This document shows positions 1-52,090 of a stretch of 64,000 nucleotides of DNA, one piece after another. The translations under genes and the position numbers were made by a program. The stretch is from Candidatus Nitrospira nitrosa (GTDB lineage Bacteria; Nitrospirota; Nitrospiria; Nitrospirales; Nitrospiraceae): contig NZ_CZQA01000008.1 in the NCBI RefSeq assembly GCF_001458735.1, forward strand, positions 248,001 through 312,000, written 5' to 3'. The notes beneath the pieces are model-generated. The model had not been told where the DNA came from and ran no database searches. It saw only the letters and a list, made by a program, of their open reading frames with translations. Numbering within the stretch: position 1 is the stretch's first letter; each line of letters opens with the position of its first letter.

Positions 1-97
1 GCTTCTTCCCGGTCTCCACGACCTTCGGGTTGGCTTTGACCTCTTCCTTGCTTTGTGGTTCGCGTCTCGGCTCTTGCTTTCGTTCTTGCTTTTCCAT
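1..97 (-). CDS. Small highly charged protein, N-terminal part only
   Basis: The first 32 codons of a reading frame that runs out of the window, beginning MEKQERKQEPRREP and rich in Lys, Glu, Arg and Gln. A good ribosome-binding site (AGGAGGTG) lies four bases before the ATG, which is why I accept it as a real gene. No signal peptide or membrane segment is visible in this part. No function can be assigned. Confidence 0.5.
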   Translation of the reverse strand, partial: MEKQERKQEPRREPQSKEEVKANPKVVETGKK

Positions 98-204
98 TCG
101 AGCACCTCCTGTCATCCAGGGAAATCCTCGCGGTCAGCTCGCAACTACCTGATATACATGCACCTTACTCTAGGGAACGGAAACCCGTCAAGGCAAGGGC
201 AGAA

Positions 205-239
205 ACGAAAAGCGCCGTTTCCCATCCGGGAAACGGCGC
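205..239 (-). terminator. Intrinsic terminator of the pyrophosphatase gene
   Basis: A perfect 12-bp stem (212-223 with 228-239, loop ATCC) is followed in the minus-strand direction by TTTTCGTTTC. It lies 28 bases beyond the hppA stop codon, the position expected for its transcription terminator. Confidence 0.8.
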
Positions 240-266
240 GTCACTCACTCCATCTCGAATCTTCTA

Positions 267-2321
267 TCAGACGATCAACGAAATGATAAGCAGGGCCACA
301 ATATTAATGACCTTGATCATCGGATTCACCGCCGGTCCCGCCGTATCCTTATACGGATCACCAACCGTGTCGCCGGTCACCGCCGCCTTATGGGTGTCGG
401 TGCCCTTCAACCCCTGCTCTTCGATAAATTTCTTAGCATTGTCCCAGGCACCGCCGCCACTCGTCATGGAAATTGCAACAAACAGACCGGTCACGATGCT
501 GCCGACCAATACCCCGCCGAGCGCCTGTGGGCCAAGCACTAAACCGACGACGACCGGTGCCGCCACGGGAATCAAACCAGGGATCATCATCTTTTGGATC
601 GCGGCCTGAGTCACGATATCGACACAGGTGCCATACTCTGGCTTACCCGTGCCTTCCATAATGCCTGGGATCGTTCTGAATTGCCGCCGCACCTCTTCCA
701 CAATCAGCCCGCCGGCTTCACCAACGGCCCTCATACACATGGAGCCGAAGATGAATGGCAACATGCCGCCCAGAAAGAGACCAACCAAGACTTTTGGATT
801 CGAGAGATCGAAGGCCGCCAGCGCCGGATTATGTGCTGCGACTTCCCGCGAGTATTCGGCAAAGAGCACCACGGCCGCCAACCCGGCAGACCCGATGGCA
901 TAGCCCTTGGTCACCGCTTTTGTTGTATTGCCCACAGCATCCAATGGATCTGTGATGTCCCGAACTTCTTTACCCAAGTGCGACATTTCAGCGATACCGC
1001 CGGCATTGTCCGTAATCGGGCCAAACGCATCGATTGCCACCACGATTCCAGCCATCGAGAGCATGGATACGGCCGCCACCGCCACACCGTACAGCCCACC
1101 GGACTCAGCACCGCCACAGACCCAGTAGCTGCCGAGGATCGCCATCGAAATCACCACGACTGGAGCCGCTGTCGACTGCATGCCCACCGCCAAACCGGCA
1201 ATGATGTTCGTCGCATGGCCGGTTTCACTGGCTTTCGAAATGTACTTCACCGGCTCATACTCCTTTGAGGTGTAGTAGTCGGTGATGAAGACAAGAGCCA
1301 AGGTGACGGCTAAGCCAAACAATGCGGCCATGTAGTAGCTGAATCCACCGACACCACCGACTCCGCCCATGATCATAAAGGTCACGGGCAAGAAAGCGAG
1401 TGCGGCAATCCCTCCGGCCACAAACAACCCCTTATACAGAGCAGGCATGATGTCGCCACCCGGAGCGACCTTGACAAAGAGAATACCGACGATCGTCGCA
1501 AAGATCGTGATGCCACCCAACGCGAGAGGATACAGAATAGGCGCCGTGGCTCCCTTGAACATGGTAAAGGCCAACACCATCGCCGCAACCGTCGTAACGG
1601 CATAGGTTTCAAAAAGATCCGCCGCCATGCCTGCGCAATCACCGACATTGTCACCCACGTTATCCGCGATGACCGCCGGGTTCCGTGGATCGTCTTCAGG
1701 AATCCCTGCCTCCACCTTGCCGACCAAGTCTGCCCCGACGTCCGCTGCCTTTGTGTAAATTCCTCCACCGACGCGCGCAAACACGGAGATCAAGCTTCCA
1801 CCGAATCCGAGACTGAGCAATGCGTGAATGGCCTTTTCCTGACCGGCCATCGATTCGGCGATCGAATAGAACCCTGTAATAGCCAACAGCCCGAGACCGA
1901 TCAATAAGAGACCCGTCACCGCGCCACCACGAAACGCCACAACCAGGGCCGCATTCAACCCATTATGAGCCGCTTGTGCCGTCCGCACATTGGCGCGAAC
2001 CGCAATGATCATACCCACATAACCGGCGAGCGCCGACGCGCTCGCGCCGACCAAGAACCCTGTCGCCGTCAGCAACCCAAATTTATCTGAGACTGCGCCG
2101 GCTGCGGCCAGCACAACAAACAGACCTGCGGCAACATAACCGACGGTTTTGTATTGTCGATTCATATAGGCGCTGGCGCCTTCCTGAATCGCCTTTGCAA
2201 TTTCCTGCATCTTTGCGTTGCCGGCATCAAGCTTGAACACCCACATCGCCAGATACAACCCATAGCCAATGCCCGCCACAGCCGCGATGAGGGCAAATGT
2301 GATAATCGCTGAGTCACTCAC
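267..2321 (-). CDS. hppA: Membrane-bound proton-translocating pyrophosphatase, K+-independent type
   Basis: Integral-membrane pyrophosphatase that couples hydrolysis of PPi to ion transport across the cytoplasmic membrane. The 684 residues match the usual bacterial length, with about 16 membrane segments. The cytoplasmic signature [18 protein letters not shown] is present, and the C-terminal region has the second acidic cluster [14 protein letters not shown]. The segment near residue 463 reads GNTTKA; a Lys at that position marks the K+-independent H+-pumping subfamily, whereas K+-dependent enzymes have Ala. The gene starts with GTG behind AGGAGG. It is monocistronic as far as visible, with its own terminator. 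In a slow-growing chemolithoautotroph it would recover energy from biosynthetic PPi or, in reverse, store it; that role is inferred. Confidence 0.95.
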
Positions 2322-39988: not shown

Positions 39989-40090
39989 CGAGGTGGTCTG
40001 GCCTTTTCCCCAGACGGCAAACGCCTTGCCAGCGCTTCCTGGGATCGGACGGTGAAGTTGTGGGAAGGGGGAGCAAAGCAAAGCGAGTAA
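39989..40090 (+). pseudogene. Duplicated 3' end of the WD40 gene
   Basis: About 100 bases repeating the end of the WD40 gene (38959-39058), over 90% alike by eye across the central 85 bases. In the WD40 frame it reads [20 protein letters not shown], then [10 protein letters not shown] and TAA, against LWEGGEKKEE and TAG in the gene. Weaker similarity runs about 40 bases further upstream with small length changes. The HEPN-MNT pair lies between the two copies, in the opposite orientation. Confidence 0.9.
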
Positions 40091-40108
40091 CTTAGCCACC
40101 TGATCATC

Positions 40109-40831
40109 TCACTTCGGCGCGATTTCGTAGACCAGCGTCACTGTGGCTTCAATCTTCAGTTCCCCTGACGAAATCGGCACATCACCGGCGCTAGCCTCCA
40201 TGGCCATGCGTGCCATAGGCATAGGAGGTCGAATCGCCTGGCCTCCTTCTGTGACCGAAAGAACCCGCACAAGCTTTACATGAAGTGTTTCGCTCAGCAC
40301 CGATGCTTTCTCACGGGCCTTGGCCGCAGCCTGTTTCAATGCGCTGAGCCGTACTGATTGTTCCTCGCGTAAGCTCCATTGCAACCCCTGAAAACTGTTC
40401 GCCCCGGCCTTTAGGATTTCTTCGATGACGATGCCAACTTTATCAAGGCTACGGATTTCGACGGTCACCATGTTGCTCACCACATAACCGATAATTTCCG
40501 GTGTAGCAGGCGATGCCTCAGTCGGACGGTTCGGCAGCGGTCGATATTGCGGAGAGACTGTGAATGACGAGGTTTGGATTCGCTCTTTGTCGATCTGTAA
40601 ATCCCTCAAGCGCTCCATGACTTTGCTCATGGTCGCACTGTTCCGCTTTTGCGCTTCGGCGAGTGATTTACCAGCGGTTTCCAAGCCGAACGTCACGAAG
40701 GCCGTATCCGGCGCATGCGGGACAGTCCCCGTTTCGCTCACGGTGAGAGTTGATGTCGCGAGCATTGCCTCATCATGAGCAAACGTCACAACCGGAACCA
40801 CCAACAGAATCAACAGCCAAAGACTCCGCAT
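40109..40831 (-). CDS. SIMPL-domain (DUF541) periplasmic protein
   Basis: 240 residues with a signal peptide (LLVVPVVTFAH) and one SIMPL domain: TLTVSETGTVPHAPDTAFVT, then IQTSSFTVSPQY and a C-terminal strand region with ELKIEATVTLVYEI. Family members fold like BP26 and form oligomeric channels or stress-related complexes. GGAGG precedes the ATG. The gene ends next to the duplicated WD40 tail, without a visible terminator. Confidence 0.88.
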   Translation of the reverse strand: MRSLWLLILLVVPVVTFAHDEAMLATSTLTVSETGTVPHAPDTAFVTFGLETAGKSLAEAQKRNSATMSKVMERLRDLQIDKERIQTSSFTVSPQYRPLPNRPTEASPATPEIIGYVVSNMVTVEIRSLDKVGIVIEEILKAGANSFQGLQWSLREEQSVRLSALKQAAAKAREKASVLSETLHVKLVRVLSVTEGGQAIRPPMPMARMAMEASAGDVPISSGELKIEATVTLVYEIAPK

Positions 40832-41003
40832 GGCCCGCCTCCTTTATTCTCAATGGCCACCTACCCTTCCCACAGCTCTACACCGGAAAACTCAGCATAG
40901 TCCCGCGACAACCATGACGCAAGAACTGCCCCATCATCGCCACTTGACCTCACTGTATACATGGGGCATCTTCTCCATGGGAAATACAACAAGAGGCTCT
41001 CTC

Positions 41004-41579
41004 ATGGCCATGACTTCAACCATGCTCCCGATTGGAACCACAGCACCACCGTTCGATTTACAGGACGTCGTGACTGGACAACGCTACTCGCTCGACTCGT
41101 TTGCGACAAGAACAGGGCTACTCGTCATGTTTATCTGCCAGCACTGTCCCTATGTGGTACATGTGGAGCAGGAACTTGCCCGACTCGGACATGATTATCA
41201 GGAGACAAATTTAGGGATCATCGCGATCAGCAGTAATGATTCCAAGAACTATCCCGATGATGCCCCGCCGAAATTGAAAGAAATGGCCATACGTCTAGGT
41301 TTCACGTTTCCGTTCTGTCACGACGAGACTCAGGAAGTCGCGAAGGCCTATCGTGCGGCCTGCACCCCAGAGTTCTATCTTTTTGATCGTGATCGCCGCC
41401 TGGCCTACCATGGACAACTCGATGACAGCCGCCCCGGCAACAACAAGCCGGTCACGGGTCGTGACCTCCGCGCAGCCATCCAAGCCATGCTGACCGGCAA
41501 GCCCGTCGATAGTAATCAGAAACCCAGCATCGGTTGCAGCATCAAGTGGAAGCCGGGCCATGCTCCGCCTTATGCGTGA
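41004..41579 (+). CDS. Thioredoxin-family protein, AhpC/TSA-redoxin-like
   Basis: About 191 residues from the ATG at 41004, which has AAGAGG seven bases upstream. A thioredoxin fold with LLVMFICQHCPYVVHVEQE; the active-site pair is CQHC (CxxC). It then has NSND-like ISSNDSKNYPDD and a cis-Pro-type CTPEFYLFD, features of a widespread AhpC/redoxin subgroup. No signal peptide, so cytoplasmic. Divergent from the SIMPL gene, with which it shares the promoter region. Last ordinary gene before the accessory island. Confidence 0.85.
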   Translation: MAMTSTMLPIGTTAPPFDLQDVVTGQRYSLDSFATRTGLLVMFICQHCPYVVHVEQELARLGHDYQETNLGIIAISSNDSKNYPDDAPPKLKEMAIRLGFTFPFCHDETQEVAKAYRAACTPEFYLFDRDRRLAYHGQLDDSRPGNNKPVTGRDLRAAIQAMLTGKPVDSNQKPSIGCSIKWKPGHAPPYA

Positions 41580-41972
41580 GAGGCCATTGAAGAAAACCCC
41601 TCCCAGTCGTACTCAACTCCTGAAAATCAACTCAACTCTTGACCCAAACCTTGTCAGAAAACGTCTATCCAGCTGATATCAATACCGTCCGCTAACACGA
41701 CCCGCGCATGAGCTGCTAAGGAATCTAAGAATTCCAGACAGTTACCAAAATCCCGCCTTGTAGATTAGGAATGGCACGAGCATTTTCATTCCACATCTTC
41801 TGTGGATAGCCCTGTGTACAAAGTGCAGAATTCCATAAAAGACGGTGCAAATGGCGCATGTATTTACCAAAGTGCCTATTTTTTAGGCATCCGCCTCACT
41901 GTAATATCACCACAACTAATAGTGGCAACAGCCTGAGTTCATTGCGTTATTGCATATTCCTAGAAATAAAGC

Positions 41973-42001
41973 TTGACACAATCTAGACACACCGCCCTAA
42001 T
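41973..42001 (+). promoter_or_regulatory. Sigma70-type promoter candidate reading into the island
   Basis: TTGACA (41973-41978), a 17-base spacer and CCTAAT (41996-42001), four of six matches to the -10 consensus. It points to the gene array and lies about 590 bases before the first cassette gene. In an integron this is where a cassette promoter would be expected, but no integrase gene is present. Confidence 0.4.
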
Positions 42002-42412
42002 CCTGGCGCTCGCGTCATCTATCCAATGGTTATCCACAGGTTCAACACATTTCTGGGGATGACGGCTCCTGGCAACAGGAGCGAGGTTTCGTTTCTGTCA
42101 AGAGGCGAGGAGAAGAAAAGGCGGTTTCATCGAGCAAAAAAACAGATCTAGGGACCAAGTTCTCAAACCAGAGCCGAATGGACGACGCGATCCTCGATTT
42201 GGAATCGGCAGATACGATCCACTGTACCCATCCATACCGCGACTACCCCAACTCGCTAATTTTCTTGGTCCTACTCTTTTTGCAACCACCTGAACAGCAC
42301 ATCGACAATTGGAAAGTCTGTCCAACGCAGTGGCCGGCTGAAAACGCTAACAAGTCTGTATACAGACGCTGCCGAAACCGACCGGCATGTTCCGACCAAC
42401 GCAGTCGGTTTA

Positions 42413-42577
42413 CGCCGATCAGCATAAGAACCCGTTATAACTGGTCGATGGGCTCTAACTAATTGCGTCATCGTCGATGCTGGGATATTGTTTGGGATCA
42501 CTTAAAGGTGCATTTCGCGGATAGAAAATGGCTGATCCGGTTCTCATTATGGATCCGCCTAACAATGTTAGAGGACT
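42413..42577 (+). repeat. attC-like intergenic block 1
   Basis: Begins GCCGATCAGCATAAGAACCC, shared with the blocks at 47260 and 49160. From 42453 to 42577 it starts with CTCTAAC and ends with its exact complement GTTAGAG; inside these lie GCGTCATC and GATCCGC, which can pair as the second boxes of an attC site. The ATG of the Mrr gene follows 15 bases after the end. Confidence 0.6.
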
Positions 42578-42592
42578 CAGCAGGAGATCACT

Positions 42593-43504
42593 ATGGCGAT
42601 ACCTGACTACCAGACGGTCATGCTCCCACTTCTTCGTTTCCTGGAAGACGAGAAGGAGCACAACATCGGCGAGGTAGTGGAGTCGCTCGTGGAGAATTTC
42701 AACCTCTCGGCGGAGGAGAGTCAGCAACTGCTCGGTAGCGGCCAGCAGACTGTCCTTCGGAACCGCGCCGGTTGGGCGCGTACCTATCTGAAAAAAGCTG
42801 GCCTGATTGCCTCGACTCGTCGCGGGTTCTTCCGCATCACCGAGAGCGGTAAGAAGGTTCTTGCCTCGAAGCCTGAGCGAATCGACGTCAAATACTTGGA
42901 GCGGTTTCCGGAGTTCGTGGCCTTCCGCGAACTGCGTCACGAGCGACCGGATGAACCTGCGACGACGGCCAGCACTTCTGGTGATGCCACGCCAGAGGAA
43001 GCACTTGACTCAGCCTACCAGCGCCTCCGACTCAACCTCGAATCCGAGCTTCTGGATCAAGTGAAGGCGGCTTCTCCTGCATTTTTTGAGCGCCTAGTTG
43101 TCGAACTGCTTGTTCGAATGGGTTACGGAGGCACTCTTCGAGATGCCGGACAGGCGGTGGGCAAGAGCGGCGACGGAGGAATCGACGGCATCATCAAGGA
43201 GGATCGTCTGGGCCTCGACTTGATCTACATCCAAGCGAAACGCTGGGATGGCACTGTAGGCCGTCCCGAGATTCAGAAGTTTGCCGGGGCGCTACAAGGA
43301 CACCGAGCACGTAAGGGCGTATTCATAACGACCTCGTCGTTTTCCGGAGATGCCATGGAGTTTACCTCGCGTATCGAAAGCAAGATCGTGCTCATAGATG
43401 GAGCGGCACTCTCTAAGCACATGATTGATCACAATGTTGGGGTATCCACTTCTCGCTCGTACGAAGTCAAGAAGATTGATTCCGATTACTTCAGTGAGGA
43501 ATGA
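42593..43504 (+). CDS. Mrr-type restriction endonuclease
   Basis: 303 residues: an N-terminal winged-helix Mrr_N domain (about 1-95) and a C-terminal PD-(D/E)xK nuclease domain (about 160-290) with FFERLVVELLVRMGYGG, GDGGIDGI (Asp198) and IYIQAKRW (Gln214, Lys216). These are the catalytic residues of the Mrr family, which cuts modified foreign DNA. No methyltransferase is adjacent, as expected for this type IV system. Good ribosome-binding site CAGGAGA. First gene of the array. Confidence 0.93.
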   Translation: MAIPDYQTVMLPLLRFLEDEKEHNIGEVVESLVENFNLSAEESQQLLGSGQQTVLRNRAGWARTYLKKAGLIASTRRGFFRITESGKKVLASKPERIDVKYLERFPEFVAFRELRHERPDEPATTASTSGDATPEEALDSAYQRLRLNLESELLDQVKAASPAFFERLVVELLVRMGYGGTLRDAGQAVGKSGDGGIDGIIKEDRLGLDLIYIQAKRWDGTVGRPEIQKFAGALQGHRARKGVFITTSSFSGDAMEFTSRIESKIVLIDGAALSKHMIDHNVGVSTSRSYEVKKIDSDYFSEE

Positions 43505-43513
43505 GCCAGGGCC

Positions 43514-43572
43514 TTCCTAACAGCAGTAGAAAGCGGAAGGCGCTGCGCGCCGCTGCTGAGGCGGTGATAGGT
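43514..43572 (+). repeat. attC-like site with GC-rich hairpin
   Basis: Directly after the Mrr stop. It starts TTCCTAAC (R-box-like) and contains the hairpin GGCGC TGC GCGCC (43539-43551), flanked by AGCGG and CCGCT, an arrangement typical of integron attC sites. The right box is degenerate (GTGATAGG for GTTAGGC). The next gene starts 5 bases later. Confidence 0.6.
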
Positions 43573-43576
43573 GCTC

Positions 43577-44002
43577 ATGAACGATCTTCGCCAAAGACTC
43601 GTGGAAGCCGCTCTAGCATGGGAGCGGGCTTTTGGCATCGCGCCTTCCATCACATCTGCACTTTCAGAAGTTGACGCCGCCCTGTTGATCGGTTGCTCTG
43701 CCGAAGAGTATTCCACGTCAATGTGCGGAGCAACGGCAGTTCAGAAAGGCCACGACTTCATATTCAATAGCTCACGGTATCAAGTCAAAGCAAACCGTCC
43801 GAGCGGGAAGCCCGGCAGCTTTGTTACGTTGGTGCCAAAAGCGAAAAACTATGAATGGGACTTTCTCATTTGGATCCTCTACGACCAGCAATACCAGATC
43901 CAGGAGGCGTGGCTTTGGGAAGTGAGTGCGTACAAAGCAGCGTTTGATTCCATCAAACGACTTGCGCCTTCGCAATACCGAAAAGGCAAGCGCCTTGCCT
44001 GA
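43577..44002 (+). CDS. Nuclease-like protein with YQVKANRPSG motif
   Basis: 141 residues. A central GHDFIFNSSRYQVKANRPSG resembles the D...(Q)xK core of PD-(D/E)xK nucleases, and PKAKNYEWDFLIWILYD follows. I remember this as a recurring stand-alone small protein family next to mobile genes; the biochemical function is unknown. The ATG at 43577 has AGGTG upstream; a GTG six bases earlier is possible. Defence or DNA-repair nuclease is a reasonable guess. Confidence 0.75.
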   Translation: MNDLRQRLVEAALAWERAFGIAPSITSALSEVDAALLIGCSAEEYSTSMCGATAVQKGHDFIFNSSRYQVKANRPSGKPGSFVTLVPKAKNYEWDFLIWILYDQQYQIQEAWLWEVSAYKAAFDSIKRLAPSQYRKGKRLA

Positions 44003-44011
44003 TCACGCATC

Positions 44012-44135
44012 TAACCCGGCGGTAGAGAGGGCTGAGAACCGCTTTATGGGGGTACGATCTCGGCGCCAACTTCAGCTCGTAGCCATTCTGCGACTCACGG
44101 CATCAGACCCAAAGCCGAAGTACAGGGCTTCAGTT
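44012..44135 (+). repeat. Cassette 3' block, copy 1
   Basis: Starts with ATCTAACCCGGCGG (attC-like left box) ten bases after the stop codon, then GGGCTGAGAACCGCTTTATG, a phrase shared by four other blocks (46611, 47117, 49030, 50325). An inner hairpin can form between ACTTCAGCT and AGCCGAAGT. No right-hand attC core follows here; the next gene is inverted. Confidence 0.6.
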
Positions 44136-44269
44136 GCCCTGATCTGATCGAATATTCCGTTATCCCGGCTTCTCCCCCATCCGCTGCCGCTGCCGGTCTC
44201 GATGTCTTCAGTGACATCCGGAAGTGTTTGGGGCGTTCATGGGTGGGGGTTCGAGCCTGAGTGTACTGG

Positions 44270-45034
44270 TTACGACATGCCTTGTTCGACCAACCCATTC
44301 TCGATCGTGACGCCCATTCGTTCTATCAGCCGAGTGAGTAATGTGAAATGGGCGCGCGAGTCAGTCGCAACGGCCAGCTGTCCAGCCGTCGCCAGTTGTA
44401 TGGTGTACACCTGTGAGGCGGAGGTTTTCAGGAGGGCCAGGCCGTAGTCGAAGAGATCCGCTTCTCTGCCGATGAGCCGTCGCCGGCTGAGTTGACGAAT
44501 ACCGGCCACCGTAAAGGGAGTCGTCTCGAACGACACATCCTTCAGACGAACCATCAAAGGCTGCTCGGCATGGCCATCGTTGTGACGCCCAGTGATGTCT
44601 GTGCCGTCGAACAGACCGCGTTGGAATCGGCGATTCTCCACCAGCGCGCGATGAAAGAGCCCACGCCACGTTGAATCGGTGAGATCACGATCCACAGCGA
44701 TGCAGGTGTCCGGCGTGAGCGGTCCGCTGACGTTGTACCCCTGCACCAGTCGCTGGCTGGCCAGGAGGTCGGGGAAGGCATCGCCCATCCGTTCGGGAAA
44801 GGCCGTGGTCCCGCAGAACGGACTGACTTGGATGGCCATATAGTCCCGGAAATGCACCTGCGGATACCGCTCCAGCAGCCACTGCAAGGTGCGCTCGTGG
44901 CACAGATGGAACGGATAAAATAGGACGCCGGATTGTGTCATGCCAGTGATGCAGCATAGCTGCTCTGCAACAGTATCCGCAAGCTGTCGTCCCAAACGGA
45001 AGCGGTGATAGTGCGCCACAGCGATTCTAACCAT
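44270..45034 (-). CDS. Hypothetical protein, inverted within the array
   Basis: About 254 residues, soluble, rich in His and Arg at the N-terminus (VRIAVAHYHRFRLGRQLADT) with CITGMTQSGVLFYPFHLCHE. Family not recognised and no motif found. It is the only gene of the island on the minus strand. No ribosome-binding site is seen at the chosen ATG. Its upstream region faces the ParDE promoter region. Confidence 0.55.
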   Translation of the reverse strand: MVRIAVAHYHRFRLGRQLADTVAEQLCCITGMTQSGVLFYPFHLCHERTLQWLLERYPQVHFRDYMAIQVSPFCGTTAFPERMGDAFPDLLASQRLVQGYNVSGPLTPDTCIAVDRDLTDSTWRGLFHRALVENRRFQRGLFDGTDITGRHNDGHAEQPLMVRLKDVSFETTPFTVAGIRQLSRRRLIGREADLFDYGLALLKTSASQVYTIQLATAGQLAVATDSRAHFTLLTRLIERMGVTIENGLVEQGMS

Positions 45035-45188
45035 CAATAGAAGGCAGCGAGATGGGGGTCAGAAAACTATTTCGTTGCTCGTGAAGTATGAGGGGAAAGA
45101 CCATGTTGACAGAATGCGGTGGGATTTCTCATGTACTCAAAAAAGTGCTAAACTGCATCAATAGTATGAAGAGGTCGGAGGTCTCACC

Positions 45189-45443
45189 ATGGGAACGACA
45201 CGAAAGACGATCACGGTGACAGAACAACAGGATCAATGGATCAAGGCCCAGATCGAATGTGGAAAGTTTACGAACGACAGCGAATACATCCGAGATCTGA
45301 TTCGACGCGATCAGGATAGCGCCACATTTCAGACGTTGAAAGATGCTATTCAGGAAGGGTTGGACAGCGGAATCAGTGATCGTACTGTGCCACAGATTAT
45401 GGAGGACGTCGAAGCGCGGCTGAGATCGAATGGCCGGTTATAA
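45189..45443 (+). CDS. parD: ParD-family antitoxin
   Basis: 84 residues, a ribbon-helix-helix protein with TRKTITVTEQQDQWIKAQIE, SEYIRDLIRRD and a toxin-binding C-terminal helix. GGAGGT lies before the ATG. ParD both neutralises ParE and represses the shared promoter. It overlaps the toxin gene by 14 bases. TA pairs like this are common as stabilising units in cassette arrays. Confidence 0.93.
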   Translation: MGTTRKTITVTEQQDQWIKAQIECGKFTNDSEYIRDLIRRDQDSATFQTLKDAIQEGLDSGISDRTVPQIMEDVEARLRSNGRL

Positions 45444-45720
45444 CCTCTCGTCAAAGGCCGCTGCCGATCTCGAGAGTATCTACGAATATACGATCCTTCA
45501 GTTTGGGCTGGAGCAGGCGCGGGGTTATCTCTTTGGCTTGCACGAACGGTTTCAGGCGCTAGCAGCGCATCCAACGCAAGGGCGCAGGGCTGATGAACTT
45601 GCCCCAGGATTGCGGCGGGTTGAGTATCAGTCCCACATCGTCTTTTATATTTCCATGGACAACGGCATTCGAATCGTGCGTGTACTCCACCAACGCATGG
45701 ACGTAACACGGCATCTGTAG
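45430..45720 (+). CDS. parE: ParE-family toxin
   Basis: 96 residues of the RelE/ParE fold: SSKAAADLESIYEYTILQFG, AHPTQGRRADELAPGLRRVE and a C-terminal VFYISMDNGIRIVRVLHQRM. ParE toxins poison DNA gyrase. Complete, with no sign of inactivation. It ends 26 bases before an attC-like block. Confidence 0.93.
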   Translation: MAGYNLSSKAAADLESIYEYTILQFGLEQARGYLFGLHERFQALAAHPTQGRRADELAPGLRRVEYQSHIVFYISMDNGIRIVRVLHQRMDVTRHL

Positions 45721-45746
45721 CAACAGCATAGGAGGCTCTCCGAGAA

Positions 45747-45868
45747 ATCCTGTAGTCACAACTCATTGAAACTACAACGGGCAGGCGTATTCTTCACACA
45801 CCGTAGTACGGTCTTATATGGACGGAAACGATCGGATCCAGCTCCTACGAATCCGTCTAAACATTGTT
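45747..45868 (+). repeat. attC-like intergenic block 2
   Basis: CCTGTAGTCACAACTCATTG is close to the corresponding parts of blocks 3 and 4, followed by GGGCAGGCGTATT and, at the right end, GAATCCGTCTAAACATTGTT. The next start codon follows 14 bases after the last GTT. Confidence 0.6.
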
Positions 45869-45881
45869 CGCTGCAAGACCT

Positions 45882-46517
45882 ATGGAATACGAGAAGTGGC
45901 GCGATGACATCTTTGGACAGCCGGTCGGTTCCGATCCGGTCATGCTCGATCTACTTCCGGAAACATATTCTGTCTCGCCCGACGAGCACTTCGCTCATAT
46001 CGATCGCGCACTCTCGGACCCGCAAATCCATGAATTGTTCAACTCAGACCAGATTGGAACTGGGCTGCAATTGATCTATTCGAACTCGTGTAGTGACATT
46101 TGCTTCTGCTACATCAACGCGGGCGACGAGGCGCGTCGAGTTTCCGGGATCGCGAAGCTCAATGATTTATACGCCAAGTATTTCGATCGCTACTGTTTGT
46201 CACCGGTTGGCAGCATTGGCAATGATCACCTCAATGGTGGGATTGGCTATCTCTGTTACATGCTCTGGGATCTATTCGTCCTCTATCCCGGAAATGCCTC
46301 GCCTGCGATGGTGTCCGCGGCACTCGGGGTAATGTCTAACGCCTTACAGATGAAAAACGATAATTGCATCGTGTCTGCGATACATGGTCTGGGACACTGG
46401 GCAACGGATGTACCTCGCGCGCCGCAGGTGCTGCGACAATGGTTGCGGAAGCCGACGACGACAAATCCCACCGTAATCTCTTATGCGAAAGAGGCTACCA
46501 CAGGCTGCATCCTGTAG
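45882..46517 (+). CDS. Hypothetical protein, 211 residues
   Basis: Soluble protein starting MEYEKWRDDIFGQPVG. A central run of conserved-looking residues, CFCYINAGDEARRVSGIAKL and LGHWATDVPRAP, does not match a family I know. The ATG at 45882 is the first Met after the cassette boundary. The gene occupies a cassette of its own between two repeat blocks. Confidence 0.7.
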   Translation: MEYEKWRDDIFGQPVGSDPVMLDLLPETYSVSPDEHFAHIDRALSDPQIHELFNSDQIGTGLQLIYSNSCSDICFCYINAGDEARRVSGIAKLNDLYAKYFDRYCLSPVGSIGNDHLNGGIGYLCYMLWDLFVLYPGNASPAMVSAALGVMSNALQMKNDNCIVSAIHGLGHWATDVPRAPQVLRQWLRKPTTTNPTVISYAKEATTGCIL

Positions 46518-46524
46518 GGCGGCG

Positions 46525-46705
46525 AACTAGGCGTTGCACACGAGCGGACGGCAACGTCGGTGTGGGGTCAACATCACATGTGCCCGCCTGGTGAACGCGG
46601 TCGTCAATGCACAGGGCTGAGGACCGCTTTATGGCGTTCCGATCTCGTCGCCGAACTTCCGCTTGTGGTCGAATGCCTACGGTCGCAAAGTGGAGCGTCA
46701 GACGT
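46525..46705 (+). repeat. Cassette 3' block, copy 2
   Basis: Directly after the stop: GGCGTTGCACACGAGCGGAC with the complement GCAACG nearby, attC-like. Then CAGGGCTGAGGACCGCTTTA at about 46611 and TCGCCGAACTTCCGCTTGTG, the phrases shared with the other copies. The right-hand part with the GTT core is missing. Confidence 0.55.
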
Positions 46706-46792
46706 TCTGTGTAATAACCGGTCGGTCATTGCGCACCAAACGGCGGTGGAAGTAGAAGAGAACACCTTACGCCCGCATGAAGGAGGCGTCCC

Positions 46793-46996
46793 ATGGACAA
46801 TGATCTCCCCTCTTCCCTCTACGCCCTGGGTGCGACGTTCTTATATTTCCTTCCAACCTTTCTCGCCCTCGCACGAGGCCACCCCAACTCCTTCCTGCTT
46901 GCGATCGTGAATCTCTCGCTCGGATGGACCGTGATCGGCTGGGTGGGTGCGTTGTACTGGTCGCTCACGAAGCAACAACGGGGAGGGGAATCTTGA
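46793..46996 (+). CDS. Superinfection immunity protein (T4 Imm-like family)
   Basis: 67 residues with two membrane helices, FLYFLPTFLALARGHPN and LAIVNLSLGWTVIGWVGALY, the pattern of the Imm_superinfect family (LPT.IA..RGH, then LNL.LGWT.IGW). The T4 Imm protein in the inner membrane blocks DNA entry of related phages; bacterial chromosomal homologues have uncertain roles. GGAGG occurs upstream of the ATG. Confidence 0.85.
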   Translation: MDNDLPSSLYALGATFLYFLPTFLALARGHPNSFLLAIVNLSLGWTVIGWVGALYWSLTKQQRGGES

Positions 46997-47067
46997 CTGA
47001 GCGCAAGGTCGAAATGGCAGCAGCCTACAAGCGAAAGACGGTGAAGGATTTTCTGATGGCGAAGTAG
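46993..47067 (+). CDS. Possible 24-residue protein overlapping the immunity gene
   Basis: A TTG overlaps the preceding stop (TTGA), and the GGGAGGGG stretch upstream could serve as a ribosome-binding site. The product would be a basic amphipathic peptide ending TVKDFLMAK. Only the coupling geometry supports it, so it remains a weak candidate. Confidence 0.25.
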   Translation: MTERKVEMAAAYKRKTVKDFLMAK

Positions 47068-47116
47068 AAAAGGGATCGAGCGTTGCGATCTTAACAAGCT
47101 GTCTCCCCCCACACTT

Positions 47117-47405
47117 CCGACTGATGACCGCTTTCAGGCTCTGCAACCTCGTCGCCGAACTTCTGCTTCTGGCCGGTTCTTCAACCATCGGACTCCAACC
47201 CAAAGCAGAAGTCCACAACTGACTGCTACTTGAAGAGGGGGGCCTTACTCCGATCCGCATAAGAACTTGCGGTAAGCGGTCCCACGGTTACAGCTCATTG
47301 AAACAACACCGGGCATGGCGTATTCTTTCCGAACTGTTGTGGCGTGTTATTCGGACAGAAAATGGTAGACCCGGTTCTGATGCTGATCGGCCTAAACCTA
47401 GGTTG
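47117..47405 (+). repeat. Cassette 3' block, copy 3, with attC-like end
   Basis: The best-preserved long copy: CTGATGACCGCTTTC, then ACTTCTGCTT with its exact complement AAGCAGAAGT 35 bases on, CCGATCCGCATAAGAAC, CTCATTGAAACAACACCGGG, CATGGCGTATTCTTTCCGAA, TTCGGACAGAAAATGG and finally GATCGGCCTAAACCTAGGTT. About 280 bases closely parallel 49030-49313. Confidence 0.75.
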
Positions 47406-47437
47406 GCAATCAGAACTTGAGCGATTGAGGCACATGG

Positions 47438-48940
47438 ATGAAAGACAGTGCTGAGTTCTTCTTGCGGGACTACCCTTCGACGCTGTTTCCATTGAGAACG
47501 AATCAGTTTCTCGTAGAGAAATATGCAGTCGAGCTGAAGGCTTTCATAAAAGAAAAGATTATCGACGCAGGAGGATCGTTTCAAAACCAGCAACGCGTGT
47601 TTGCGACCAAACGAGGATGGTTTCTGCGCCGCACGGTCAAGTTGGATCCTGTAGCGGAGTTCTTTCTATATGATCTTGTCTACCGGAACCGGTCATTATT
47701 CAGAGCTTCAAGCAATAGTAAGAGAGCGGTTTTCGGATTTCTCATTGAGAGCGGCCAACCTGTCTCAACGCTAAAAGCATACGTAAATTTTAAAGAACGA
47801 GTAGCGTTAAATAGGGCGACCTACAAGCACTATGCGTATTTTGATGTGGCTTCGTACTTCAATCACATCTATCACCACGATCTTGTGAGATGGTTCGAGG
47901 ACGTTGGGGCGACAGAGCCAGACTTAAGCCTCTTTGGCAAATTCCTCAGAGAGATATCTTCTGGAAGGTCGGTCGACTGTCTTCCCCAGGGGCTCTATCC
48001 AGCAAAGATGGTGGGCGCCTCATTCCTGTCTTTCCTAGAGGCATCCAACAGACTGCGCTCTGCGCAAACCCTGCGGCTGATGGACGACACGTGGATTTTC
48101 GACAACGACCCACGAAATTTGGTTTCTGACTTCACGCTCGTTCAGGCGCTACTAAGTGACAGAGGCCTATCCGTTAACGACAAGAAGTCGGTGGTACTCG
48201 AGGGATATGACGCTGCGGCAGAAATGCCAGCTGATTTAGATCAGATGAAGATCGACCTGCTGAGAAAAAGGCGAGAGGAACTGAAGGAGTCGGAAGGCTA
48301 CGGCGATGAGGAAGAGTATGATGATGACGACGAGGATGAGGACCCCGACACCTTGGCGGAGCTCACGGAAGAAGAACAAGAGTACCTCCTCTCGCTTCTG
48401 AAACGGGACAACGTTCAGGAGGAGGACGCGGAGTTGGTTCTAACTCTCATGCGGGAGAACTCCGCAGACTTGATGAGCTTTCTGCCATCGCTCATGGCTG
48501 GATTTCCAGCTTTATCAAAGAAAATTTATCAGTTTTGTGGTGACGCTGAGGACAAGACCGCAATTACAGATATGATCCTCGAATATCTTGAAAGTTCGGC
48601 CCAAGTGACGGAGTTTCAGTTGTTTTGGTTTGGCATGACGGCAGAAGATCACCTCCTCAATACACCTAAAGCGGCAGAACTTCTCCGAGCTCTTTATGAA
48701 AACGATAGGGCAACAGCTATAACAAAGGCCAAAATACTAGAGATTGCTGACAAACGTTTTGGGTTGCCAGATCTAAGGGACGAGCATCTTCGCACGGGCC
48801 AATCGGACTGGCTGGCTTGGTCTGCTGCCATCGGAGCACGAGTTCATCCAAAAGGTCAGAGGAACCAGCTACTCAAGTACTTTCGCAAGTCGTCCCCGAT
48901 GAATCTCCTGATTGGAGAATTTGTGGAGAAATGCTTTTAG
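47438..48940 (+). CDS. Stand-alone reverse transcriptase, defence-type (DRT/UG-like)
   Basis: 500 residues. The reverse-transcriptase core has motif A YAYFDVASYFNHIYHHDL (Asp136), motif B-like LPQGLYPAKMVGASFLSF (183-200), the catalytic pair in RLMDDTWIFDND (Asp216, Asp217, with Met in place of the usual Tyr/Phe-x) and a motif D-like SVNDKKS at 245-251. An acidic linker (about 288-303) leads to a helical C-terminal region of some 190 residues. There is no intron maturase domain and no retron ncRNA evident. This architecture fits the unknown-group reverse transcriptases used in phage defence, such as the AbiA/AbiK/DRT lineages; the class cannot be fixed by eye. GAGG precedes the ATG. Confidence 0.85.
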   Translation: MKDSAEFFLRDYPSTLFPLRTNQFLVEKYAVELKAFIKEKIIDAGGSFQNQQRVFATKRGWFLRRTVKLDPVAEFFLYDLVYRNRSLFRASSNSKRAVFGFLIESGQPVSTLKAYVNFKERVALNRATYKHYAYFDVASYFNHIYHHDLVRWFEDVGATEPDLSLFGKFLREISSGRSVDCLPQGLYPAKMVGASFLSFLEASNRLRSAQTLRLMDDTWIFDNDPRNLVSDFTLVQALLSDRGLSVNDKKSVVLEGYDAAAEMPADLDQMKIDLLRKRREELKESEGYGDEEEYDDDDEDEDPDTLAELTEEEQEYLLSLLKRDNVQEEDAELVLTLMRENSADLMSFLPSLMAGFPALSKKIYQFCGDAEDKTAITDMILEYLESSAQVTEFQLFWFGMTAEDHLLNTPKAAELLRALYENDRATAITKAKILEIADKRFGLPDLRDEHLRTGQSDWLAWSAAIGARVHPKGQRNQLLKYFRKSSPMNLLIGEFVEKCF

Positions 48941-49029
48941 ACTAAGGAAAGCCCAACCATGCGCTGCACAGCGGATCGGCTCCAGCGCTAGCGCGTTTCC
49001 GGCAACCGGTGAGCAACACGGTATCGTTA

Positions 49030-49313
49030 CAGGGCTGAGGACCGTTTTAGGGCGAGGTGATCTCGGCACCGAACCTCCGCTTCTGGCCGTTTCTACGACC
49101 GTCGACACCCGACCCAAAGCAGACGTACACGACTGACCGCTACCAGATGGGGGCTTACACCGATCCGCATAAAAACCCGTGATACATAGTCCCACTGGCC
49201 CAACTTATTGAAACGGCACCAGCCATGGCGTATTGTTTGCGAACAGTTGTAGCGTGTTACACCGTTAGCAATGAGCAGATTAGGTTTCTCCATAGATCCG
49301 CCTAAATTTGTTC
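49030..49313 (+). repeat. Cassette 3' block, copy 4, with attC-like end
   Basis: Parallel to copy 3 over its whole length: CAGGGCTGAGGACCGTTTTA, CCGAACCTCCGCTTCTGGCC, GACCCAAAGCAGACGT, CCGATCCGCATAAAAACCCG, CAACTTATTGAAACGGCACC, GCCATGGCGTATTGTTTGCG, and the end GATCCGCCTAAATTTGTT. The next ATG follows only eight bases after the GTT. Confidence 0.75.
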
Positions 49314-49320
49314 GGATAAC

Positions 49321-49744
49321 ATGGGTATGCCAACCTGGGACAATGCTAAGCAGTTGTTGGCTGAGTACGATGGAATTGCCACTAAACTCTTCGCGGGCGG
49401 TCTTTCACTTTCTCAACTGCCTGCGGTCATGCCGCGCTCAGCGAACTGTCAGTACTGGCTGAGGTCCGTTAACGGCACAACGCAGCATCTCGAGGTCTAC
49501 CCCTTGGTTAGACGCAACTACAGCGGCGCTCGAAATTACCCTCGCCCTTGTGTTCTGGAATCCGATGGCCCTTCCTCAGAATCTGACGGCTGTCGAGTGT
49601 GAGAAACGCGTGAAGGTACTGGAATCGTTAGCAGAAGCCTGTCGGACAGGCGCTCCCGTCGCCCCATGCATTCTGGCACCCGAGGACAACGGGTCGACGG
49701 AAGAACAACCTGAGAGACATGATGTGTGCGTGGTCGTATGGTGA
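49321..49744 (+). pseudogene. Hypothetical cassette gene with a frameshift
   Basis: A frame from MGMPTWDNAKQLLAEYDGIA to about residue 60 (HLEVYP) continues convincingly in the +1 frame as LDATTAALEITLALVFWNPM and on to PERHDVCVVVW and a stop at 49744. The shift is at or near the CCCC run at 49500-49503. The joined product would be about 140 residues of no known family. A sequencing error or programmed shift is possible, but decay is simplest. Confidence 0.6.
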
Positions 49745-49788
49745 GCCTCGGGGCCGTTAGCCTTGAAAAGGCGGAGGAGGTGAGCAGC

Positions 49789-50277
49789 ATGACCGAAGAC
49801 AACCCTGGTTATGGGGCAAGGTATGAGAAGAATTTGCAGCCGTTCCTTATCGAGATTTCGTCTGAAAAACTCCAAATGTCGAGAAATGTGTCATTTGCCA
49901 GTGCGGGTGTGGCATTGGCTGTGCTTTTGGCATCTTCGCAGATTAAACAGGATTCGGCTTTGATCGCCATCTCCTTAGCATCGGTCGCGACCTCAATCCC
50001 CTGGTTTCTGCTCAATGCAGTGGTTTCTGAAAATCACATCTGGGGTGGCCCCAAATGCTATCCTAACTACTCCGCCTGGGTACTGAAGCCAATCAGTAGT
50101 GCTATGATTCTCGGCCCTTTTTTCTTGCTCTTTCTCGGCCTATGTTGCTTTGTGTTATTTCTTAGCAAAATTGCGGGCGTCTTGTTCCTCGCTAGCAGTA
50201 TATTTGCATTTCAATACAACTTGAGGGTTCAAGATGAACTCGCAGAGTATTTAAGAAGTACTCAGGGAAAAACCTAA
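49789..50277 (+). CDS. Small membrane protein, four segments, unknown
   Basis: 162 residues starting MTEDNPGYGARYEKN, with a short cytoplasmic N-terminus and hydrophobic helices near 35-52, 55-75, 97-118 and 120-140, then a charged tail. The very strong ribosome-binding site GGAGGAGGTG fixes the start. Family not recognised. It follows the frameshifted gene within the same cassette unit or the next, as no attC-like core lies between them. Confidence 0.75.
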   Translation: MTEDNPGYGARYEKNLQPFLIEISSEKLQMSRNVSFASAGVALAVLLASSQIKQDSALIAISLASVATSIPWFLLNAVVSENHIWGGPKCYPNYSAWVLKPISSAMILGPFFLLFLGLCCFVLFLSKIAGVLFLASSIFAFQYNLRVQDELAEYLRSTQGKT

Positions 50278-50324
50278 TAAATCGGTCCAACTTTTCGGGC
50301 CTCTGCTCTTCACTCGGACGTCCA

Positions 50325-50412
50325 CGGTTGAGGTCCGCTTTATGACGGTGCTCTCTCGGCAGCGTACTTCAGCACTTGGCCGATGGCAGTCCTCGACCCT
50401 AAGCGGACGGTT
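50325..50412 (+). repeat. Cassette 3' block, copy 5
   Basis: CACGGTTGAGGTCCGCTTTA, CAGCACTTGGCCGATGGCAG and CCTAAGCGGACGG repeat the first part of the other blocks. About 80 bases later CAGACGTTAAAC, a proper GTTRRRY-type core, precedes the RidA-like gene by 15 bases. Confidence 0.55.
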
Positions 50413-50900: not shown

Positions 50901-51769
50901 GTTCAATAGAACCTAGAACGAAAGGTCGTGAATTATTACGCCTGTCGGTTTTGAGATGTCAGATTAATGAAGGATTGCAAAGTGATATGTGCTTTCAATC
51001 AAAAGTGTCCTCTCGAAGGCGCTGCATGGTCCCCTTTTTATTACCAAAAGACTATAATCGCGTGATGCAGGATGGTAATTGTGTTCAGGATTGTTGACGG
51101 CGCGAGGAAGAGTTGGAGAAGCAAGAGCTGAGGCAGGGAGCCATGGCGATAAAACGGAATGGGGTATTCAGTAACACTTTACACTCACGCCTCTCCGATC
51201 AGCTGCCACTTTTTCTGGTGTCCGCTGTATCGACGGGTTAGGCGGCATCTTGATTGCTCCAAATTGTGTCCGGTTTTGGCCGATAGCGGGCATCTGGAAA
51301 GGTCAACTCTGCCGTTTTTCATTCAAAACTCTTGACCCAATCCAACAGCAAACGTCAGTTCAGGTGTGAGCTACTCACCGCAGATCTGAATAGTTCAACA
51401 TTCCTGGCACGTTGCAGCAGCAGAATGCAGCAGCTGCAGAATGGTGGCTGCCTCCGGCACCGTGCATTTCACCTCCCTTTCCCTTAATAACGCTTGACTC
51501 TCACCCCTAATGCGCCCAGGGTGATGCTATGACGTATTGAGCCACGCCGACCGTCCTATCCTCGCGCGTCATTTTCACTCCCTCCCGTATCCTGCGCGAC
51601 CGATTCCCTGGTCTCCGCCGCTTTTGCGCCGCATGTTTTTCGAACGACCTTTGTAGACGTCTTCCATCCAAGCGCCATCGTCGCTTGGGATGGCAGAGGT
51701 GTCCTCCGCACAGGAGTGGAGCTGAGGTCTCTCGACCACATCAGACAATTCAGAAAAGGAGCCATATAT
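50901..51769. other. Gene-free right edge of the accessory island
   Basis: About 870 bases with no convincing gene. It contains GTGTCCGGTTTTGGCCGATA near 51268, a possible decayed start of a cassette 3' block, and AACTCTTGACCCAA at 51326, which repeats the segment at 41634 on the left edge. The ribosome-binding site of the Fe-S carrier gene is at the right end. Confidence 0.45.
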
Positions 51770-52090
51770 ATGATCACCATCACACCGACAGCAGAAGGAA
51801 AGATCCGAGAGCTCATGCAGGAAGAAAAGGACACGCTTGGCCTGCGCGTCTACGTAAAGGGCGGCGGGTGCCATGGCTATCAGTACGGGATGGCCTTTGA
51901 GTCCGTCATGAGCGAAGACGACACCGTCATTGAAAAAGGTGACGTCAAGGTCATCATGGACTCGCAGAGCGCTCCGCTGCTGGCCGGCTGCGAAGTCGAC
52001 TACATGGACAGCGTGCAAGGCTCCGGCTTTGCGATCAAGAACCCACAAGCCAAAACGACCTGCGGGTGCGGCAGTTCATTCAGCGCATAA
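51770..52090 (+). CDS. A-type iron-sulfur carrier (IscA/ErpA/HesB family)
   Basis: 106 residues starting MITITPTAEGKIRELMQEE. The three conserved cysteines are in GGGCHGYQYG and TTCGCGSSF, which bind and hand over a 2Fe-2S or 4Fe-4S cluster. AGGAG precedes the ATG. It lies 59 bases before the alpha subunit of the ferredoxin oxidoreductase, suggesting that it helps insert the cluster of that enzyme. Confidence 0.93.
   Translation: MITITPTAEGKIRELMQEEKDTLGLRVYVKGGGCHGYQYGMAFESVMSEDDTVIEKGDVKVIMDSQSAPLLAGCEVDYMDSVQGSGFAIKNPQAKTTCGCGSSFSA

Follow-up and report, generated by a model that had tools for sequence, protein, structure and literature searches.

The window analysed here is a 64,000-nucleotide stretch of the Candidatus Nitrospira nitrosa genome (RefSeq assembly GCF_001458735.1, contig NZ_CZQA01000008.1, positions 248,001 to 312,000 of the forward strand), and it contains an array of small genes interspersed with two repeat modules, of which "Y" lies ahead of genes and "X" lies behind them (Table 1). 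One of these genes encodes a stand-alone reverse transcriptase (RT). The DNA on either side of the array, 40001-42311 and 51269-51999, shows synteny with that beside the arrays of sister species (L098 and L101 on the left, L091 and L101 on the right), showing that the array occupies a shared chromosomal hotspot. The cassette of slot 1, i.e., the Mrr gene together with the 143-aa ORF, recurs in the sister array L089 at 90% DNA identity, and its Mrr part is matched in L092 at 94%.

Table 1. Features of the cassette array and domains of the DRT5 protein (nucleotide positions of the window, unless residues are stated)
Feature	Position	Strand	Remarks
Whole cassette array	42372-50409	+	four Y, five X
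Y copies	42372-42571; 45748-45870; about 47240-47408 (DRT5); 49150-49314	+	
X copies	44028-44128; 46613-46674; 47120-47239; 49031-49110; 50326-50409	+	
Mrr-type (type IV) restriction enzyme, slot 1	42593-43504	+	then 143-aa ORF 43571-44002
attC of slot 2	46521-46612	+	after ORF 45864-46517; score 34.6; ends GTCAATGCAC before X
Small membrane protein, Pfam Imm_superinfect	46793-46996	+	between two X elements
Y before DRT5 (attI-like left half)	about 47240-47408	+	profile match hmm 4-287 at 47120-47406; alignment
Promoter-like TTGAAA-N17-TATTCT within Y	47298-47326	+	consensus match only
Core GCCTAAACCTAGGTTGGC ending Y	47390-47408	+	G^TT at 47402/47403
DRT5 (UG16) reverse transcriptase ORF	47438-48940	+	500 aa, uninterrupted
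attC of DRT5 cassette	48951-49029	+	R'' GCCCAAC; 3' core GTTAC
X closing the DRT5 slot (attI-like right half)	49031-49110	+	
Y of the slot after DRT5	49150-49314	+	then small ORFs 49321-49602 and 49789-50277
RT domain	residues about 1-285		AlphaFold2 model
Acidic linker, disordered	residues 287-305		pLDDT < 50
C-terminal domain, predicted all-helical	residues 303-498		AlphaFold2 model

By sequence, the RT can be named as DRT type 5, which is the same as UG16 (PMC7699616). The protein matches the NCBIfam equivalog NF041750 (Drt5) with 657.7 bits against a cut-off of 550, its residues 7-498 aligning with positions 1-484 of the model, and the PADLOC Drt5 profiles match the reading frame at an E value of 2e-194. 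The first-pass annotation had rightly recognized the layout of a defence-associated RT, and its statement that no named class could be given is superseded by these matches. A scan of 84,980 bacterial and archaeal genomes returned relatives at 34 loci in other genomes (one of which, L049, is a 61-residue match only), four more records came from plasmids, and a search of viral contigs and phage records found no DRT5 relatives. Of 395 genomes sampled evenly across the phylum, only the window's own carries the gene, which fits lateral (horizontal) acquisition. In a tree of 31 Drt5-related proteins, restricted to this family and with no outgroup from the other DRT classes, the protein is sister to the acidobacterial homologue L016 with a support of 100/100.

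The catalytic residues D136, D216 and D217, described earlier as a complete triad, are invariant in all 26 aligned sequences, which argues against an inactivating change in the core across homologues. The motif LMDD, described at the same time as unusual, is indeed present; it is shared with the nearest homologue L016, and most of the family carries FMDD, so that it is better regarded as a family trait. An AlphaFold2 model was computed from the alignment of 26 sequences, without a plasmid-record row (mean pLDDT 87.9, pTM 0.88), and it predicts the disordered acidic linker and the helical C-terminal half that had been read from the sequence. The RT core and the layout of linker and helical domain are shown at the level of the alignment and the predicted model. 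Foldseek ranks DRT4, UG15, Abi-P2, DRT6, AbiA and AbiK at the top for this model, with alignments of 470-580 columns that include the C-terminal half. Lower in the ranking are group II, DGR and retron RTs, with mostly shorter alignments. A sequence search against solved structures gave no match for the protein.

The layout thus has two points of reference. With the DRT5 (UG16)/Drt5 family the protein shares a full-length match above the curated cut-off, the core residues, the domain layout and the single-gene organization, whereas it differs in having LMDD rather than the usual FMDD, a longer acidic linker and carriage on an integron cassette. DRT4 (UG15), DRT6, Abi-P2 and AbiK are its nearest solved folds over the full length and are likewise stand-alone RTs with a helical C-terminal half, several of them known to prime on protein without a template; however, they share only 9-16% sequence identity with it and belong to separate families. 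A different origin, in which a group II intron or retron RT has landed in an integron, would be in line with the entry of group II introns into integrons described in PMC7923331, and a sister-species cassette array does hold a group II intron RT with RVT_1 and GIIM (L101:5698-7038), in contrast to DRT5. The Pfam scan of the window gene, however, finds RVT_1 as the sole domain (42.6 bits, cut-off 29.6), with no maturase (X/GIIM) domain, as had been claimed before, and the group II intron RT model reaches 18.6 bits, far below its cut-off of 300. Together with the Drt5 equivalog match and a fold nearest to DRT4, DRT6 and the Abi proteins, this leaves such an origin a negligible probability, in keeping with the layout first proposed.

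Purified DRT5 proteins (DRT5S/L) are reported to carry out protein-primed, template-free DNA synthesis in vitro, with a covalently bound product (PMC13275509). The window gene would, as a DRT type 5 (UG16) protein, be a single-gene antiphage polymerase, and the published DRT5 proteins and the fold similarity suggest that its DNA synthesis very likely proceeds with no nucleic-acid template. By the same analogy, synthesis is very likely primed on an amino-acid side chain of the polymerase itself, and the DNA would remain covalently attached. The priming serine has been mapped in DRT1 and, according to the same study, the other class 3 DRTs do not conserve it (PMC13275509). Among the invariant residues of the window protein, Y78, Y145, S178, S456 and S486 are candidates for the primed position. 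Upon infection, which is presumed to supply the trigger, the polymerase activity or its product would halt phage growth through a presumed toxic step, probably at a cost to the cell. The protein is an ordinary member of its family, with a mechanism that analogy accounts for well, found in a somewhat surprising setting.

This setting is an integron cassette, i.e., an ORF with its own attC and with recombination cores at both ends, the 3' core being shortened. The attC begins 10 nt beyond the stop codon, and its two-arm score is 32.9, whereas the minus strand reaches 21.8 and none of ten shuffles scores above 26.1, which confirms the attC-like cassette of the first-pass annotation. As the training set of the scorer was 17-18 attCs of sister arrays, attC counts within the genus are not independent of it; the strand bias (in 21 arrays, 36 attC-like sites lie on the coding strand and the opposite strand has none) and the attC matches in unrelated genomes are independent of this training. 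The 3' core of the DRT5 attC is shorter than the GTTAATGCGAC of sister arrays, suggesting that the cassette may no longer move. We propose that the gene was taken up as a cassette of about 1.6 kb (core, ORF, attC) and now occupies one slot of an array that has four such attI-like slots in tandem and no integrase gene, where the promoter-like sequence in the upstream attI half could express DRT5 alone. In the aligned Y copies this sequence reads TTGAAA-N17-TATTGT and is among the better conserved parts of Y.

Cassette carriage of DRT5 is also seen elsewhere. In an uncultured gammaproteobacterium (L041), a strong attC lies about 20 nt after DRT5 and is followed by four more attCs in a row; in a cyanobacterium (L046), a disrupted DRT5 frame has attC-like sites on both sides, as judged by eye; and in Methylobacter (L031), an attC-like site lies upstream of the gene. 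Besides the one in the window, at least two DRT5 genes are thus integron cassettes. The sister of L041, L015, has no attC, and the DRT5 cassettes therefore look like separate captures. The cassette setting had been called unusual: the cassette is real, although it is less odd than it seemed, since integrons store defence genes (PMC12409362) and other DRT5 cassettes exist.

The first-pass annotation had also expected the protein to act alone or with the repeat RNA next to it. There is no second gene inside the DRT5 cassette, as it had observed. Beside other DRT5 genes lie HerA, SIR2, HsdR, an OLD-like gene, GmrSD, an S1-domain gene, TldD and an integrase; these are defence genes or unrelated ones, and none of them is a constant partner. 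The repeat could be a noncoding RNA partner, providing a template or scaffold in the manner of DRT2 or DRT9, in view of its adjacency, its palindromic sequence that is able to fold, and the use of noncoding RNAs by other DRT classes. However, it also precedes the Mrr gene and, in sister species, many unrelated non-RT cassettes, it matches DNA behind two integrase genes, and it is missing at all 36 other DRT5 loci. Within the cassette, the ATG comes just 35 nt after the core. Several other DRT5 genes begin less than 40 nt from, or overlap, the preceding gene, which leaves no room for an upstream RNA there. Rfam has no match in the window, and the DRT5 family shows no conserved noncoding RNA beside the RT gene such as marks the RNA-dependent DRTs. 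The repeat was therefore rejected as a partner RNA, a role that is highly improbable for it. In the window as in the cyanobacterium, the moved DNA amounts to little more than the ORF and its attC, which argues that DRT5 needs neither a partner gene nor a dedicated RNA; the integron cassette is then a natural minimal unit of the system.

What the repeats represent is better understood from the genus. X/Y modules occur in 56 of 79 genus genomes, this one included, and a profile made from the window copies found the same modules in 20 further stretches of sister species; they were not found in plasmids. Y ends in GGCCTAAACATTGTTAGG, which resembles an integron simple site, with the next ORF beginning shortly downstream, and a canonical attC ending in ...AACGTTAATGCGAC in many cases abuts X on its upstream side. 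Where array pieces are orthologous between species, they remain similar from the left flank across Y as far as the core (e.g., L098, L101, L102 and L108); on the right, such pieces agree from the core GTTAATGCGAC onwards, over X and the adjoining flank (L099, L100 and L106). The cassettes between these conserved halves differ across species, so that the breaks in homology fall at the two cores. G272 has an empty site that stands by itself, Y...CCTAAACATAGTTAATGCGGCAAGG...X, and the reversed control pattern has no match. An attI lies next to intI, and in sister species Y is found directly behind a full integrase gene (G280) and behind an integrase fragment (G210), though not in this genome. The integrase adjacency, the breakpoints and the empty site lead us to read Y and X as attI-like halves, and the array as tandem slots of the form Y|cassette-attC|X.

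Integron integrases themselves are infrequent in the genus, being present in eight of the 79 genomes (293-474 bits, cut-off 265). In the window's genome, the best score is 85 bits, from part of a 320-aa ORF, and hence it lacks the intI of a complete integron. Behind most of the other integrase genes in the genus, the sequence is a different one; it too ends in GTTAGGC or a close variant, and a cassette ORF comes next. Repeats, attCs, breakpoints, one empty site and integrase adjacency are what is observed of the slots; we further infer that the cassettes were inserted by an integrase, that recombination at these sites is still possible and that cassette genes are expressed from Y.

Two other ways of dividing the repeats were considered. 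X and Y taken together as one 290-nt attC was rejected on account of the canonical attCs upstream of X and of the homology breaks at the cores. A cassette without an ORF, made up of X and Y and with Y for its attC, is less likely because Y lies right behind intI, because an isolated empty Y|X exists, and because arrays tend to open with Y and to close with X.

The array might instead not derive from an integron at all, Y and X being transposon-like or recombination-prone repeats between which genes are swapped by homologous recombination. The copies are 60-80% alike between slots and long enough for some recombination, and a block of about 970 nt (44028-44995), consisting of X and a stretch with a 255-aa minus-strand ORF (44270-45037), is common to many sister arrays at about 90% DNA identity. 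However, homology stops at integron-type cores rather than randomly inside the repeats, canonical attCs precede X in uniform orientation, and Y lies behind integrase genes, which makes this explanation quite unlikely. The block itself occurs in two copies in L089, its 255-aa ORF has no Pfam or PADLOC match, and the block may represent a mobile element within these arrays.

Taking the array as integron-derived, we compared it with three known arrangements. First, integrons are established stores of defence genes, and those that chromosomal and mobile integrons carry (Darracq 2025 and Kieffer 2025, reviewed in PMC12409362) are likewise small genes in single cassettes with an attC; however, the review makes no mention of RTs, and the window array differs in its tandem attI-like slots and in lacking an integrase gene. 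Second, CALINs, i.e., clusters of attCs lacking an integron integrase, two of which are reported in Candidatus Nitrospira inopinata (PMC9024848), share with the window its attC cassettes in a genome without intI, whereas most slots here have attI-like halves on both sides, arranged head-to-tail and usually with one or two cassettes each. Third, arrays containing Delta-attI-type cassettes are known in mobile integrons (PMC12901181) and also have attI-derived sequence inside them; there, the Delta-attI belongs to the cassette, whereas here the cassette retains an attC of its own and lies between the two attI halves. No description of tandem attI-like slots of this kind was found in the literature searched, a body that most subscription journals lie outside. 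The less familiar part of the locus is the array, in which a landing site and a promoter-like sequence recur with each slot, and which is more novel than the DRT5 gene.

We consider it likely that the window gene is a DRT5 antiphage polymerase with template-free, protein-primed synthesis, acquired as an integron cassette in an integrase-less array of attI-like slots. Against this, the cassette could be an inactive passenger or could serve a host function other than phage defence, as the genome without an integrase, the degraded 3' end of the attC and the single copy in the phylum sample might suggest. However, with 58% identity to its nearest relative, the protein still has an intact reading frame and every residue that is invariant in the family, and other cassettes of these arrays match defence families (Mrr, TIR, HerA, SMC/LmuB-like and other defence-type genes), so that a passenger or host role is unlikely. 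The protein adds a divergent member to DRT5.

For the genus, we propose more tentatively, with the balance falling slightly against it, a distinct integron layout in which attI slots lie in tandem, distant from the integrase, and each brings a promoter-like sequence of its own; every cassette would then in effect be first and expressible, and the integrase would be supplied rarely or in trans. The expression of distal defence cassettes has been left open for the V. cholerae integron (PMC12409362), and if the slot array works as proposed, it would offer a testable answer to how such cassettes are expressed.

Some further features of these arrays can be recorded. The window array contains a ParD/ParE toxin-antitoxin pair (45189-45720), with ParE at 68.9 bits in Pfam. 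Integrase fragments lie inside arrays or start them, at L116:1319-1961 (G210) and L117:11409-11914 (G088), as remnants beside attI-like sequence. The first cassettes behind the integrase genes of L109, L114 and L119 apparently encode TIR-like proteins, as judged by eye from the start of their sequences.
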